Of a stretch of 64,000 bases of DNA, positions 6,476 through 64,000 are shown piece after piece. The DNA comes from Salvia splendens (taxonomy: Eukaryota > Streptophyta > Magnoliopsida > Lamiales > Lamiaceae). The translations under genes and the position numbers were made by a program. The stretch spans positions 1 to 64,000 of the forward strand of contig NW_024599134.1 in NCBI RefSeq assembly GCF_004379255.2, given 5' to 3'. Each line of letters starts with the position of its first letter. Position 1 is the first letter of the stretch. The notes beneath the pieces are model-generated. The model was not told the DNA's origin and searched no databases. It saw nothing but the letters and a program-made list of their open reading frames with translations.

Positions 6476-6721
6476 ATGTTTATCCTCTTTGATTTTGGAA
6501 GTTTCCTAATGGGTTAGAAAGCGGGAGTAGGGGTGGGGAATTGTACCGGACTTACAGTACCTAAAAAATACCAAAAAATATCGATTTTTTGGTATACCGT
6601 ACCGAAAAATTCGGTACGGTAACGGTATTAGATTTCCTATACCGCAATATACCGAATTGTCGATGTATATCGACACTTCGGTAAAACGTGGTATACTAAT
6701 TGATTATTATATATATAAACA

Positions 6722-6963
6722 GGGTAGTGATAAAATGCAAACTTTAAATATTATATAAACTCCAAACTATGATCTGGACCGTTAAAAAATGTCAATAGAT
6801 GATAAAATAACAACAACAAAAAATGTCAACACAGCATCAACCGTTGACATTGTGTTGACATTTTTTGTTACTATTATTTTGTCATCTGTTGACATTTTCT
6901 ACCGATCCAGATCATAGTTTAGAGTTTGTAAAATATTTAGAATTTGTATTTGATTACATCCCT
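6722..6963. mobile_element. Foldback MITE with ~120-bp arms
   Basis: The element is nearly a full palindrome. 'aaactatgatctggaccgtt' on the left mirrors 'gatccagatcatagttt' on the right, and 'aaaaaatgtcaacacag' mirrors 'tgtgttgacattttttgtta'. The start gggtagtgat equals the first ten bases of the neighbouring TA-targeting element, and it abuts a TA run on the right. Confidence 0.7.
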
Positions 6964-7220
6964 ATTTATATATATATATATATATATATAGGGTAGTGAT
7001 CTATGGCAAACACCTCTTAACCAAATAACTAGAGAACAAATAATAGCCACAAGATCAAAAAAATCAAGGGCTGATATTAATTTTTGAATTTAAGGAGAAA
7101 TTAGTTCCCTCAATCACAAATTTAGTCCATAATAACAAGGCGGGGTATTATGGTCATTGCATAGAAAAAAATAGGTTCCCTAAATTCTTATCTCTCGATC
7201 TCTTCTGCAAATTCAGCCGC

Positions 7221-7610
7221 CTAGAGCAATCCGAAAACAGCGTAGACGCATTGGGCGGCGGAATCCGGGAGGATAACCGACAACAGAGCCGCGACCGCAG
7301 CGTAGCCGGAGGAGACGATCAGATTGTGCGCGAGGCGGTGGAGAGGGGGGAAACTGAGCGCAGCGGCGCATCCGAGGTAGTGCAGGGCGGAGATGGCGAC
7401 GGCAACGCGATTTGCGATTGGATGCGCGGTGAATGGGGACTGGCTGGGATCGTGAATCCACTGGTATTTGAGCTGGAGGAAGGCTTGGAGCTGTTGGGTT
7501 GGGGTGATCGGAGATGTAGCATTGTGCGGCGAGAAATGCGGCGGCGAATTTGCCGGAGATGGAGACGTAGAAGGCTTGGAGCTATTGGAATAATCTAAAT
7601 AGCGTCGCTG
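7221..7610 (-). pseudogene. Captured gene fragment, membrane-protein-like C-terminus
   Basis: A 130-codon open frame without an in-frame start begins just after a stop near 7611 and ends in TAG at 7223-7221. It has a proline/serine-rich lead ('SPSPANSPPHFSPHN'), then 'LQAFLQLKYQWIHDP', then two hydrophobic stretches ('VAVAISALHYLGCAAALSF' and 'YAAVAALLSVILPDSA'). GC content jumps well above the surrounding DNA. This looks like a piece of a real plant membrane protein gene carried inside a transposon. I do not recognise the family. Confidence 0.5.
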
Positions 7611-7705
7611 AATTTGTTATTAACAAAAAATGGCGATGGTGAATTAATATGGAGTAGTTAGTGAGTAATTATAAATATAAAACAATTCTTAAAGTGTAAT
7701 TTTTA

Positions 7706-8225
7706 TTAGGAGTGATGTGTTTTGTAAACAAGAGTGAAGTAAAATCGTAATAAAAGTGATGTATTTTGTAAACAAGAGTGAAGTAAAATCATGCTAAGAG
7801 TGATGTATTTTGTAAACAAGAGTGAAGTAAAATCGTAATAAGAGTGATGTGTTTTGTGAACAAGAGTGAAGTAAAATCTGAGTAAGAGTGATGTGTTTTG
7901 TGAATAAGAGTGAAGTAAAATCTGAGTAAGAGTGATGTGTTTTGTAAACAAGAGTGAAGTAAAATCTGAGTAAGAGTGATGTGTTTTGTGAATAAGAGTG
8001 AAGTAAAATCTGAGTAAGAGTGATGTGTTTTGTAAACAAGAGTGAAGTAAAATCTGAGTAAGAGTGATGTGTTTTGTGAACAAGAGTGAAGTAAAACCTG
8101 AGTAAGAGTGATGTGTTTTGTGAACAAGAGTGAAGTAAAATCTGAGTAAGAGTGATGTGTTTTGTAAACAAGAGTGATTTGTTTTGTAAACAAGAGTGAT
8201 TTGTTTTGTAAACAAGAGTGAAGTA
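7706..8225. repeat. 44-bp dimeric minisatellite, copy 1
   Basis: About twelve tandem units. Each 44-bp unit is two related 22-mers, both starting aagagtga: 'aagagtgaagtaaaatctga' (+gt) and 'aagagtgatgtgttttgtga' (+ac). The length is not a multiple of three and few stops arise, so long spurious frames appear on the minus strand. They are not genes. The same array occurs in the second family copy at 56650-57235. Confidence 0.9.
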
Positions 8226-8950
8226 TTCAAAATCCACTTCAATTTGACAATTTCTCCATTGAGAAACACCACGGCTCTTTTAGCATGCACTTCTCTTATC
8301 AAGGTTATGGATTCATCAACTCAGACATACATCTAAGCATCCAATTTCTGATCAAGTTATAATTATTTTTGGAGAATTACACCAGCCATATACCTAATTC
8401 AACTAGTACATAGGAAGAAAATCCTAAAACTGATATTAGAACCCTTGAATAATTTTCAATCCCAATCCATTTCGGTAGAAATTAATAATTAATTTTTTTA
8501 CTTAAATCATTTTCGAGCTAAAGCCGAGCAAAAGCGGAAAGAAAAAATGTTATCTCCACTTAGAAAATATATAATGCAAAATGGAATTCCCGACTTTCGG
8601 GTCAAGAGAATTTCAAAAATTGCGATGGCATGTCATCACTTAGAATCTTAATCTCAACTTTTATTTTCATTTCTTTATCTAGAATAATGAAGTCACCCAA
8701 TCCAAATGCAAATAACTAAGTAATTATCAAGTTATTGCCGTCATCTAAAATGGTGTTCACCGCAGCCGTCATCGCCGCGAACTGCCCGGCGGAGGACGCC
8801 TTCAGGGGAAGAACCGGCGCATGTGCGGCGGCGGCGGCGGCGGCGGAGAGGCCGGCCATGGCGGTGGCCTGAGACAATTCAGATTCAGATTCTACAAATG
8901 CGCAGAACACAATTCACGTTGATACATTTGAGATATTGAATTCCAAAAAT
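8226..8950. other. Unplaced interior of copy 1 with a GC-rich island
   Basis: This part has no counterpart in copy 2. A minus frame just beyond the array reads 'REVHAKRAVVFLNGEIVKL', which is protein-like. A GC-rich block (8740-8910, minus) encodes an alanine-rich 'GLSAAAAAAAHAPVLPLKAS'. Both could be further captured exon pieces, but I cannot name a source gene. Confidence 0.35.
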
Positions 8951-9363
8951 GCCCTTTGGCTATTATTTTTTATAAAAATCTACAAGATTATTTAAGCCAT
9001 AAGATTAATTTGAAGTATTAAGATGTGTGGCTGAGATTTGTTCTCTAGTTATACACTTAAGATTAGTTATATCTTGATCACTACCCTATATATATATATA
9101 TATGTTTATGTTATATTTATACTAAAATTTAAAAATAGAATTCTCTATTATACAAAAATAAAAACTTAAACTTAAAAATATATTTTTTTCAGGTATAACG
9201 GTATGTCGTACCGTAGTTCGGCATACCGCAAGAGTACGGTATACCAAAATGCAGTATGACAACGGTATCAAAAACTAACTTTCCGAATTTTTGGTATACC
9301 GAAAAATTTGGTACGGTATCGGCATGGTGTTTTGTCATACCGTAACTTTCAGTACTATATAGT

Positions 9364-55756: not shown

Positions 55757-56117
55757 CCCGATATCGTATTTCCAATCTTCTTTCGGTGTTATGTGTTATT
55801 GTGTTTATTATATTTAATAGGATGAGTTGATAAAAAAATAATTGTGAATTTGTTTGAATAAATTATCATTTGAATGTTTAATTTTATTGTATTAATCAAT
55901 GTATTAATTTTTTAAATATAATATATATATATATATATAGGGTCATGATCTATGGCAAACACCCCTTAAACCTATAACTAGAGAATAAATCATGGCCACA
56001 AGATCAAAAAAATCAAGGGCTAGTATTAATTTTTTAATTTAAGGAGATATTAACTCCCTCAATCACAAATTTACTCCACAATAACAAGGCAGGGTATAAT
56101 TGTCATTGCAGCCAAAA

Positions 56118-56437
56118 TTACGTCATTGGCAAATTCACAAATTCAATTCTTTGAGAACGAACCCGCGTTCTTCGTTGAGCTCCGAGAATCCGAGCAAGCG
56201 GAAGTAGGCGGCGGAGAAGAAGCCCTACTGCGGGGATTTCGGCGACGGCGTGCCATTTTTTTCGTTTTGGCAATTGAATTGCGGCGGATGGTTGGCGGCG
56301 TGAGGTTGGGGGAATTCGGAGGGGTGTGAGAGTGAAGGGATAGGATCTGTTGGGAGATAAGAAGGATGTTTGGAGCGGCAGGACTGCAGAGTGGTGGCGA
56401 TGGCTCTGCAAATTCTGAGCTTCAAATTCTTTGCCAT
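56118..56437 (-). pseudogene. Captured 5' fragment of an OVATE-family-like gene
   Basis: The minus frame starts at ATG 56437 with 'MAKNLKLRICRAIATTLQSC' then 'RSKHPSYLPTDPIPSL'. This resembles the N-terminus of plant OVATE family transcriptional repressors, where a basic lead is followed by an S-C-R-S-K-x-P-x-x-L-P motif. The open frame continues as Pro/His-rich text and stops near 56228. The OVATE domain proper is not present. The match is by motif memory and needs a search. Confidence 0.45.
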
Positions 56438-56649
56438 TGCTATTTTAAGCTGCCATAGAATGCAGTGTAAAAGGATTTAAATATTGAGGGAATTGAAGCT
56501 CAATTTTCATCTACCCTGGTTTTGATTTTTTTTTTATTTTTGTTAGTTTGAAGATTTAAAGCAAAAAGATGTAAATCTGGTGGGGGAAATGGAATTAATT
56601 ATAGAGAAGGTATTTTTAATTTTAGTTTCTTGATGAAATTAATTTAGTG

Positions 56650-57235
56650 ACTCATGTTTTGTAAACAAGAGTGAAGTAAAATCATGCCTAAGAGTGAAGT
56701 GTTTTGTATACAAGAGTGAAGTAAAATCATGCCTAAGAGTGAAGTGTTTTGTATACAAGAGTGAAGTAAAATCATGTTAAGAGTGAAGTGTTTTGTAAAT
56801 AAGAGTGAAGTAAAATCATGTTAAGAGTGAAGTGTTTTGTAAACAAGAGTGAAGTAAAATCATGTTAAGAGTGAAGTGTTTTGTAAACAAGAGTGAAGTA
56901 AAATCATGCTAAGAGTGATGTGTTTTTTAAACAAGAGTGAAGTAAAATCATGCTAAGAGTGAAGTGTTTTGTAAACAAGAGTGAAGTAAAATCACGCTAA
57001 GAGTGAAGTGTTTTGTAAACAAGAGTGAAGTAAAATCTGAGTAAGAGTGATGTGTTTTGTGAACAAGAGTGAAGTAAAATCTGAGTAAGAGTGATGCGTT
57101 TTGTGAATAAGAGTGAAGTAAAATCTGAGTAAAATTGATGTGTTTTGTGAACAAGAGTGAAGTAAAATCTGAGTAAGAGTGATGTGTTTTGTGAACAAGA
57201 GTGAAGTAAAATCATGCTAAGAGTGATGTGCCAAT
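56650..57235. repeat. 44-bp dimeric minisatellite, copy 2
   Basis: About thirteen units of the same two 22-mers as at 7706-8225. The left half uses the variant 'aagtaaaatcatgctaagag' or 'catgttaagag'; the right half uses 'aaaatctgagtaagagtgat', as in copy 1. The array thus contains two sequence classes arranged in blocks. Confidence 0.9.
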
Positions 57236-57487
57236 TTATCCATATTTTTATAGAGTTATCCCAAATTGATATTGACATTCATTATCTGTTTGAGTTTAGA
57301 TACATAAAAATCTATTTTCACAATTCCTGCATGAAGTAGGGTGTTATTACCATGAACGTATATATTATGTGTTGAAAATTGATTCCCTCTCTATTAAAAC
57401 TATTAACCCTCTTTTGGAAAAACAAAGCTAAGAAATTGCGAAGAAATCGTAATCACACAGATCTCCTAAATTAAAACTTATTCAATT

Positions 57488-57671
57488 ATACTCCCTCCGT
57501 CCCGGGCTACTCGCTCATTTCCTTTTCGGCTCGGAGATTAAGGAATGAGTGTATAGGAAAGTCAAAAATGACGGCCGTAGATGAAATTTTTTACTAAAAA
57601 TAGAAAGAGTGCAAGTAACTTGGGACGCCCAAAAAGGAAATAAGTGCGAGTAGTGCGGGACGGAGGGAGTA
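57488..57671. mobile_element. Stowaway-like MITE inside copy 2
   Basis: 'tactccctccgtcccgggct' pairs with 'gtgcgggacggagggagta', and 'ctactcgctcatttcctttt' pairs with 'aaggaaataagtgcgagtag'. Third level of nesting: hAT, then TA-targeting element, then this MITE. Confidence 0.8.
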
Positions 57672-57788
57672 TCATACACTACGCGATAAAGCATACACAC
57701 AAGAAATCTGCATTCTAAGCAGATGATCCAGAAACACTGCCTAAGGCGCAGAGGAAATTCTGTGAATCGGCGACGTAATTGATGCAGA

Positions 57789-58049
57789 TTGGAAGGAGAA
57801 AGAAAAGGAAACCACGTAATTTCCGCATTCTTGACGACGCAGATTTCCCTTTCCGGAAATTCGATCCCGTCGTCTATGGGTCGTGATTTCCGCATTAACG
57901 TTAACCACCACAGTGCCCCCTCCTCGCCGACTGCCACCACCCACCGACCGGAAACACCCACCGACCTCTCGTCTTCGTTCAGCGAGATCGGAGGACTCAA
58001 TCGCGATGAGCTCCGCGAAGCGGCCTACGAGGTCTTCTTCAATTTGTGA
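57789..58049 (+). pseudogene. Captured fragment resembling an UNC-13/DUF810-type protein
   Basis: The plus frame contains 'MGRDFRINVNHHSAPSSPTA' then a Pro/Thr/Ser stretch. It ends 'SEIGGLNRDELREAAYEVFF' followed by a stop. The ending resembles the conserved 'D-(D/E)-(I/L)-R-E-(T/A)-A-Y-E-(I/V)-F' block of plant Munc13-like (DUF810) proteins. The fragment is cut right after this block. The identification rests on one motif and could be wrong. Confidence 0.4.
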
Positions 58050-58627
58050 AGAGAGGAATTCACTCAACCAGCGTGAAGAAGATGGGGGAGGTTTAAATTT
58101 CATATTGTAATTTCCTAAAATACCCTCAGCATATTTTCAATAATTAAAATAAATAATATTTGTTCCATTAAGATGTGTGGCTGAGATTTGTTCTCTAGTT
58201 ATACACTTAAGATTAGTTATATCTTGATCACTATCCTATATATATATATATATATATATATATAATCTATCGGTATACCGGTATACCGCAGTATACCGAA
58301 TATTCGGTATATACCGCAGATTCGGTATACCGCGGTATACCGGTATACCGAATATTCGGTATATACCGAAGATTCGGTATACCGCAGTATATCGGTATAC
58401 CGTGGATTCAGTATACCGCGGTATAGCAAAATTGATACCGTTACCGTACCGAAACACTACGGTACGGTATCATACCGTACCGGAAACTGCGGTATACCGA
58501 AAAATCGGTATTTTCGGTATTTTTCCGGTACGGTAAGTCCGGTATTTCAGTATAATTTCCCACCCCTAGACGTACCATTTATCATATATTCTCTTAATTT
58601 GAGCCTAGATTTATAGAAAAAACATCC

Positions 58628-63477: not shown

Positions 63478-64000
63478 ACAATAAGAGTCACATTTTACTT
63501 TTACCATAAATGGTTAGTAGACCCCACATTCCACCAACCAATTCTACTCACATTTTATTATAAAACTAACGTAGAACCATTCTTAAACGTAGAACAAATG
63601 CCAAACGGAGGTCGTTAGATCTTTTAATCCAATGGTGTTGATTTGCACAGCAACTTCCCATTACAACCAAAACTATTATTAATGGGTGAATGCAGAGAAG
63701 TGAAAAAATAAAGCATGCATGGACTCTTCTTCGTTTCATTCATTCTTCCATCAACATGTGAGTTTTTTCACATGTTGAGTCAGGAATGTCGTGAAAACAT
63801 AGTCTAATATGTATGATTTTTAATCTTGACCGTCATTTTTTCCTCATCCAATGAATAAAATATGTAGAGTTCTAGGTTCTACACTTAAGAATGGTTCTAT
63901 CTTTAACACAACCCTATATATATATATATATATATATAAGTGAGACCCATAATCCACTAACTTATTTAACCTACTTTTCTTTATATTTCTTAAAATTCGT
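63478..64000. mobile_element. Stowaway-like MITE split by a TA-targeting element, running off the window
   Basis: Typical MITE interior ('tttacttttaccataaatgg', 'cacattttattataaaacta') breaks at 63571 and resumes at 63940 with 'agtgagacccataatccact'. The right end is outside the window. Confidence 0.6.
63572..63914. mobile_element. Small TA-targeting element related to copies 1 and 2
   Basis: The right end, read inward, is 'gggttgtgttaaagatagaa' then 'ccattcttaagtgtagaac'. It aligns with the ends of copies 1 and 2 ('gggtagtgatcaagatataa', 'ctaatcttaagtgtataac'). The left end has 'tagaaccattcttaaacgta' but lacks the outermost ~17 bases. A TA run follows the right end. No gene cargo. Confidence 0.65.

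Follow-up and report, generated by a model that had tools for sequence, protein, structure and literature searches.

A microsatellite-targeting, MULE-like transposon family of Salvia splendens with gene fragments reassorted on either side of a central minisatellite

Introduction

Both the insertion of non-autonomous Mutator-like elements (MULEs) into TA microsatellites and the carriage of host-gene fragments by Pack-MULEs have been described. Here, these systems are compared with two elements, Element 1 (E1) and Element 2 (E2), located in a stretch of 64,000 nucleotides of Salvia splendens (the window; contig NW_024599134.1, positions 1 to 64,000; Table 1). E1 and E2 very probably belong to a family of some 1,000 non-autonomous, MULE-like, TA-inserting copies, in which a tandem array lies between a left and a right cargo.

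SaTar elements are known from guayule, rice, sorghum and citrus (PMC5907723). Like the sage family, they are non-autonomous and MULE-like, have mostly inverted ends and lie in (TA)n and other microsatellites. They produce target duplications of 9-10 bp outside microsatellites and form uninterrupted head-to-tail clusters that are not nested; in sage, one 10-bp duplication (locus L031) and head-to-tail neighbours were seen. Unlike the sage family, SaTar families measure about 230-1900 bp and three of the five rice families were termed non-Pack-MULE. The accessible text presents the contribution of gene parts only as a potential, and describes neither an internal minisatellite nor a reassortment of halves; it contains the speculation that circular intermediates could join microsatellites by recombination (PMC5907723).

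MuTAnT elements of Medicago truncatula resemble the sage family in their (TA)n targeting and the G-rich extreme ends, and show 9-bp duplications outside microsatellites (PMC4486113). They differ in size, as 90% of them measure 200-300 bp, and in having a known autonomous partner of the mudrA type; no gene cargo or minisatellite is described in the accessible part of that report (PMC4486113). Pack-MULEs and other Pack-TYPE elements share with the sage family the host-gene fragments between conserved ends and the chimeric interiors (PMC8903248, PMC4858842, PMC13317346). The fusion of neighbours was proposed as a route by which Pack-TYPE elements in general can acquire DNA, with no mention of a repeat joint, and the words microsatellite and minisatellite are absent from the accessible main text (PMC8903248). 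Similarly, no reassortment of left and right parts across a repeat is described in the accessible text of these sources (PMC8903248, PMC4858842, PMC13317346).

TA-targeting MULEs, gene capture and internal tandem arrays are each known. In the accessible open-access literature, no TA-targeting MULE with both gene cargo and a conserved minisatellite was found, nor was this combination found with a reassortment that can be read from the array. In the sequence-only reading of the window, Pack-MULE-like capture, TA targeting and a minisatellite had appeared unfamiliar as a combination. Drosophila DINE-1/Helitron-type elements carry a tandem array inside a short non-autonomous element, as in sage, and a bacterial miniature inverted-repeat transposable element (MITE) with an internal minisatellite has reportedly been found; both belong to different superfamilies. 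A two-slot gene cargo is not known to us from transposons with internal tandem repeats.

Two elements with shared ends and a shared minisatellite

Comparison of E1 (GGGTAGTGATC...GATCACTACCC) with E2 by BLAST (E<=1e-3) revealed a common left end of 176 bp (88.6% identity) and a common right end of 79 bp (98.7%). The left and right ends are also similar to each other in inverted orientation over about 67 bp (75%), and hence constitute terminal inverted repeats. The outer 12 bp, AGGGTAGTGATC, are perfect at both ends of E1 and carry two and one mismatches in E2. Tandem Repeats Finder (TRF) identified an array of period 44 in each element, with 11.7 copies in E1 (7710-8225) and 13.0 copies in E2 (56655-57230), the 44-bp unit being made of two related 22-bp halves that each start with AAGAGTGA. 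All four ends adjoin TA runs, and the left-end pattern, which has two matches in the window, was never found in 100 shuffles. Beyond the ends, the array and the inverted similarity of the ends, no other match between E1 and E2 was detected at this threshold. The features proposed in the sequence-only reading, namely shared ends, a 44-bp minisatellite, (TA)n flanks and wholly different cargo between ends and array, were therefore borne out, and the pattern proved larger than claimed.

Family size and architecture

In the following, C1, C2, C18 and the like designate Salvia splendens contigs, the window being on C609; three-digit names (L001 and so on) designate loci read, L1 to L28 left cargo clusters and R1 to R32 right cargo clusters. 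Genome-wide, a left-end pattern of 18 bases gave 967 matches with at most two mismatches, versus 18 for the reversed control, while a right-end pattern of 31 bases gave 1,102 matches at the same stringency, versus none for its control. The family thus comprises about 1,000 copies in Salvia splendens, of which roughly 6% were read.

A sample of 33 left ends without mismatch was taken in list order. Of the 36 listed on C1, it includes the first 20 plus 8 of the 11 that follow (three were skipped); C2, with 47 listed, contributed its first 5. A 44-bp array was found within 1.5 kb of the left end in all 33 cases. Parsing identified 27 of these copies as complete; they represent 24 combinations of 22 left and 22 right clusters. 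The remaining loci were picked for their resemblance to E1 or its modules, or because they adjoin another copy, and frequencies in the full set are therefore biased towards the E1 network. An element was considered complete when its left end was followed, at most 6 kb further on the same strand, by a right end, which gave 63 elements, including L007 with its truncated right end and two fused elements in L015. The second elements of L004 and L005, the minus-strand element of L010 and loci L017, L022, L032, L042, L051, L053, L066 and L069-L072, for which the stretch read does not hold both ends, were left out.

The array is present in 63 of the 63 complete elements, whose median length is 2,294 bp (1,657-2,983), with a median of 726 bp (401-1,635) for the array itself. 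It is partly inverted in L011, L016, L026 and L049, where two arrays face each other or apart. Several arrays accompany a left end in L017 and L022, with no right end within the stretch read. A TA run of at least 8 bp lies within 30 bp on both sides of 55 elements and on one side of the other 8, and no element lacks it on both. Because the others sit in TA runs, a target duplication is readable in only one of the 63 elements, L031, which has unique sequence on its left and shows the 10-bp duplication TACATCCATA around GGG...CCC. The inverted ends, the TA flanks and this duplication fit TA-targeting non-autonomous MULEs.

Copies also cluster. Another family end was found at most 150 bp away in 12 of 69 testable flanks, on the same strand in 10 of the 12 (a pair read whole counts twice). 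At C2:36414491-36430859, eight left ends lie on the same strand, seven of them about 2.2 kb apart; two neighbours of this run, read as L059, are both complete, measure 2,162 and 2,163 bp and are linked by TA repeats.

Reassortment of left and right cargoes

Cargoes were clustered at 80% identity over 60% of the shorter cargo. The 63 complete elements contain 28 left clusters and 32 right clusters in 38 combinations, and no cargo matches one on the opposite side (E<=1e-5). Members of a cluster are about 95-100% identical in the clusters measured, and different clusters are unrelated. Most clusters have a single member (20 of 28 on the left, 23 of 32 on the right). Of the left clusters with two or more members, 6 of 8 combine with at least two different right clusters; for right clusters of that size, the converse holds for 4 of 9. 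For example, L1 is found with R1, R2, R7, R8 and R22, while R1 is found with L1, L2, L3 and L6, R2 with L1 and L26, and L4 with R5, R12 and R31. In addition, L3, L6, L7 and L8 have two right cargoes each, and R4 and R6 two left cargoes each. The same recombinant can occur in several copies at different sites (four for L1-R2, two for L1-R7 and two for L1-R8), making it unlikely that the combinations are assembly joins.

Genome searches with single modules gave a similar picture. Full or near-full copies of R7 occur at 9 places, 2 with L1 within 4 kb and 7 without; L1 occurs at 19 places, 9 with R1a within 4 kb and 10 without; and the E2 left cargo occurs at 10 places, 5 with the E2 right cargo within 4 kb and 5 without. 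These searches score the best 40 candidates each, so that absence does not mean rarity. The full or near-full rows used were 19 of 56 for L1, 15 of 63 for R1, 9 of 40 for R7, 5 of 40 for the E2 right cargo and 10 of 41 for the E2 left cargo, the rows set aside being partial or shorter matches, further pieces of places already counted, R1b rows and parents. As support for its view, the sequence-only reading had asked for numerous copies in which one and the same array is bordered by varying cargo on either side, and the 38 combinations agree with this.

The minisatellite as a site of exchange

Since exchanges leave their trace in the succession of repeat variants along the array, the joining step is legible in the sequence and can be counted. 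Arrays were written as strings of 22-bp half-units (tokens) and compared by token alignment with a tightened gap cost. The comparison drew on 34 combinations whose arrays are not inverted. These gave 22 pairs with one cargo in common and 539 control pairs with none, and the 95th percentile of the controls served as the threshold (exceeded by 21 of the 539 from the left and 26 from the right). Array homology from the side of the shared cargo was above the threshold in 13 of the 22 pairs. In 9 of the 22, it was above the threshold on the shared side and at background on the other, which places the switch inside the array. A cruder permutation test, in which repeat phase is ignored, agrees with this result (0 of 2000 shuffles reach the observed value).

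Inspection of the token strings by eye showed that L1 arrays mostly open with one string whether they stand beside R1, R2, R7 or R8; this string is partial in L020 and L036 and missing in L038. Conversely, R1 arrays end with the same half-unit in 20 of 20 cases, beside L1, L2, L3 or L6, and the right part of the array is common to the four L1-R2 arrays and the L26-R2 array. In the clearest, three-way case, both likely donors were found. The array of L034 (L1-R7) matches that of L035 (L1-R2) without gaps at bases 105-540 (97.0% over 436 bp), and that of L071 at bases 745-1164 (97.3-99.4%), L071 being a copy with R7 and a left cargo other than L1, read without its outer left end. The switch falls within about 200 bp inside the array. 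Arrays also change unequally: an insert of 434 bp is present once in L070 and one of 440 bp at least twice in L069, with 99.5-99.8% identity.

Hence the minisatellite is supported as one site of cargo exchange, and not as the sole site. The suggestion made from the sequence alone, that the minisatellite marks where cargo is exchanged, holds to the extent of the variant maps and the three-way recombinant; as a description of every exchange it is too narrow, since breaks occur in the cargo too.

Host-gene fragments in the cargo

Pfam searches identified no family above the cut-off in six frames of the E1 left cargo, none at E<=1 in six frames of the E2 left cargo, and only Pap_E4 at 0.47, far below the cut-off, in four frames of the E2 right cargo. 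The OVATE-like and UNC-13-like fragments previously proposed for E2 thus found no support in the six frames of its left cargo and the four frames of its right cargo, respectively. As Pfam gave nothing useful here, the loci matching the E1 left cargo and the E2 right cargo come from a genome search. The L1 fragment of E1 matches two host loci with gaps, C18:21013675 at 87% and C17:23340619 at 85%. The C18 locus reads through 215 codons without interruption and is annotated as a transmembrane protein of 203 residues, and the C17 copy, with a frame of 180 codons, is annotated too. The fragment is antisense in E1 and lacks about 30 bp of the parent gene, and the membrane-protein-like character first ascribed to this cargo is thereby explained. 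In the E2 right cargo, fragments match two different sets of loci (Table 1), and the outer part is 99-100% identical at four other places.

Tests of 13 open reading frames from cargoes gave matches to the C-terminus of the copper ATPase HMA4 in the left cargo of L010 (1.6e-30), to UDP-glycosyltransferase in the right cargo of L027 (5e-26), to TAXi_C in the second right cargo of L029 (1.6e-10) and to an F-box in the right cargo of L023 (7.2e-9); a match of L026 to DUF740 (0.0041) was below the cut-off. In total, 8 of the 13 had no convincing match, including E1's own L1 despite its located parents. The cargo is therefore, at least often, host DNA. TA-targeting MULE-like elements, described without gene cargo in the accessible published accounts, here carry gene fragments on a large scale.

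Some cargoes have been annotated as genes. Seven proteins were found with the parent gene of L1, three of which are annotated sage proteins containing L1-type sequence, and one of these three (SASPL_155596) is E1's own cargo. SASPL_130747, on C11, matches L1 over residues 89-217 (best L032, 96%) and the right cargo region of L049 over residues 15-64 (90%). SASPL_109125, on C3, matches L1 of L030 over residues 123-250 (100%), whereas its residues 6-110 match the right cargo of L063 (94%) and lie outside the L030 stretch read. Segments of different cargoes thus seem to be united in predicted gene models. Transposon cargo accounts for some of the genes predicted in sage and may inflate the sage gene count.

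Proposed mechanism and alternative explanations

The copies read follow a single plan, with a fixed end and a cargo slot on the left, the 44-bp minisatellite in the middle, and a second cargo slot and fixed end on the right. The ends, the flanks and the 10-bp duplication suggest that a MULE transposase acts in trans. Cargo may be captured by copying during the repair of breaks linked to the element, as proposed for Pack-MULEs, and the array would provide the region of homology in which two copies anneal or cross over, joining a left half to a foreign right half. Two routes appear likeliest. In the first, the gap left by excision would be repaired from two different elements, one for each broken end, with annealing in the array. 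In the second, head-to-tail neighbours lying in the same TA microsatellite would recombine through their arrays, whose direct orientation would invite a deletion or crossover that joins the left half of one element to the right half of another. The new combination could then transpose and multiply. We judge the family to be Pack-MULE-like and microsatellite-targeting, with the central minisatellite serving as one recombination joint. A further-reaching proposal, which we put forward tentatively and at less than even odds, is that the minisatellite is the maintained joint of a two-slot cassette transposon, gene fragments being reassorted combinatorially over about 1,000 copies and new pairs spreading by transposition; if the predicted models that join cargoes are transcribed, this would be an exon-shuffling machine. 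The assembly of chimeras from several genes by Pack-type transposons is still debated.

Several observations weigh against the proposed mechanism. In 4 of the 22 pairs, homology is above the threshold from both sides and the switch is not placeable, and in 9 it is at background on both sides; 4 of these 9 involve the R22 element, in which L1 ends at base 391. The pairs are not independent, as L1 pairs account for 10 of the 22 and for 6 of the 9 with a switch in the array, and the 63 elements are enriched for E1 relatives. Some combinations with no cargo in common have strong and long array homology. Exchange is also not confined to the array: within the right cargo, R1a and R1b diverge at base 357 (R1a positions 1-357 are common to both at about 98%, the last 88 at 82%, and the middle is not shared), further breaks occur inside L1 at base 335, 391 or 414, and R7 and R24 have the array-side 150 bp in common and not the remainder. 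No closed four-way set, in which two left cargoes are each found with the same two right cargoes, is present among the 38 combinations. The sample gave no example of the route through tandem neighbours, the half-swaps expected from L004/L060 and L029 being absent from the 63 elements. Lastly, parents were located for a minority of cargoes.

The reassortment could have arisen by homologous exchange between dispersed copies, through two-template gap repair, gene conversion or ectopic crossing-over, with the array acting as the main long shared stretch. The presence of the array in every complete element and the varied points at which the 9 in-array switches fall are consistent with this explanation, to which we give a probability just short of even. 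For the template switch itself, one three-way case with both likely donors was found.

Neighbour fusion is also possible, although somewhat less probable. Here, two elements in one TA microsatellite would be mobilised or deleted as a unit, or their arrays would be joined by single-strand annealing. Head-to-tail neighbours do exist, at the 12 of 69 flanks mentioned above, and in L015 two elements are fused with the loss of the ends between them. In L072 (435-1658), an array is followed by two short stretches of 49 and 25 bp that resemble R1, another array and then R7, possibly a half-completed fusion. Such fusions are described for Pack-TYPE elements in the accessible text of PMC8903248. However, the combinations expected from the neighbours, L2-R28 (from L004/L060) and L1-R21 (from L029), are those missing from the 63 elements, an argument of little weight with about 6% of the copies read.

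Cargo could instead be replaced without exchange, one cargo being lost and a fresh host fragment captured on that side while the array remains passive. In agreement with this, L4-R31 and L4-R5 keep array homology from both sides though their right cargo differs, R1a and R1b diverge beyond base 357 as if a fragment had been swapped between the end and older filler, and the 9 pairs at background offer no array homology for an exchange. However, the same right cargo and array flank stand beside different left cargoes in R2 (L1, L26) and R1 (L1, L2, L3, L6), and R7 has the same array flank beside L1 and beside the left cargo of L071. Fresh capture is disfavoured because cargo and array segments are 97-99% identical in different partners, and we regard replacement as improbable; as the only process, it is ruled out by the case of L034, L035 and L071.

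The decay of a single ancient transposon, its middle having changed differently in each copy, might account for the many single-member clusters, but it is scarcely credible given the near-identity of members within clusters that are mutually unrelated and the four other places carrying the outer E2 right cargo at 99-100%, and it is refuted by the matches of several cargoes to host genes. The two outcomes named beforehand as speaking against the sequence-only reading, the same cargo everywhere and the filler of one ancient element, were looked for and not found.

Features of the window

Table 1. Positions of E1, E2 and their parts in the window
Feature	Positions	Strand	Remarks
(TA)n left of E1	6967..6990		
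E1, combination L1-R1a	6991..9086	+
E1 conserved left end, about 170 bp	6991..7160	+	diverged inverted repeat of the right end over the first ~67 bp
E1 left cargo, cluster L1	7161..7703	+
Captured host-gene fragment within L1, antisense to E1	7210..7575	-	annotated as SASPL_155596
E1 central 44-bp minisatellite	7704..8225	+	two 22-bp half-units per unit
E1 right cargo R1a	8226..9015	+
E1 conserved right end	9016..9086	+
(TA)n right of E1	9087..9102
(TA)n left of E2	55922..55939
E2, combination L28-R32	55940..58236	+
E2 conserved left end	55940..56110	+
E2 left cargo L28	56111..56654	+
E2 central 44-bp minisatellite	56655..57232	+
E2 right cargo R32	57233..58165	+	matches more than one other locus
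R32 fragment	57675..57775	+	C17:27436641 (97%), C18:24254642 (86%)
Second R32 fragment	57823..58041	+	C6:3477819 (95%), C5:3595494 (89%), C17:19991638 (81%), C18:18573885 (80%)
E2 conserved right end	58166..58236	+
(TA)n right of E2	58237..58264

Three further features were observed in the window. Immediately to the left of E1, a small element at 6721-6966 starts with AGGGTAGTGAT, ends near ACATCCCT and lies between TA-rich stretches; it is probably a short MITE of a related TA-targeting family. Within the right cargo of E2, positions 57485-57675 hold an insert with inverted-repeat arms of about 45 bp (85%) and TACTCCCTCCGTCCC ends, which we take to be Stowaway-like. A third stretch resembling the right end is found at 63871-63938, where 53 bp are 83-85% identical to the family right end and run into a TA repeat.

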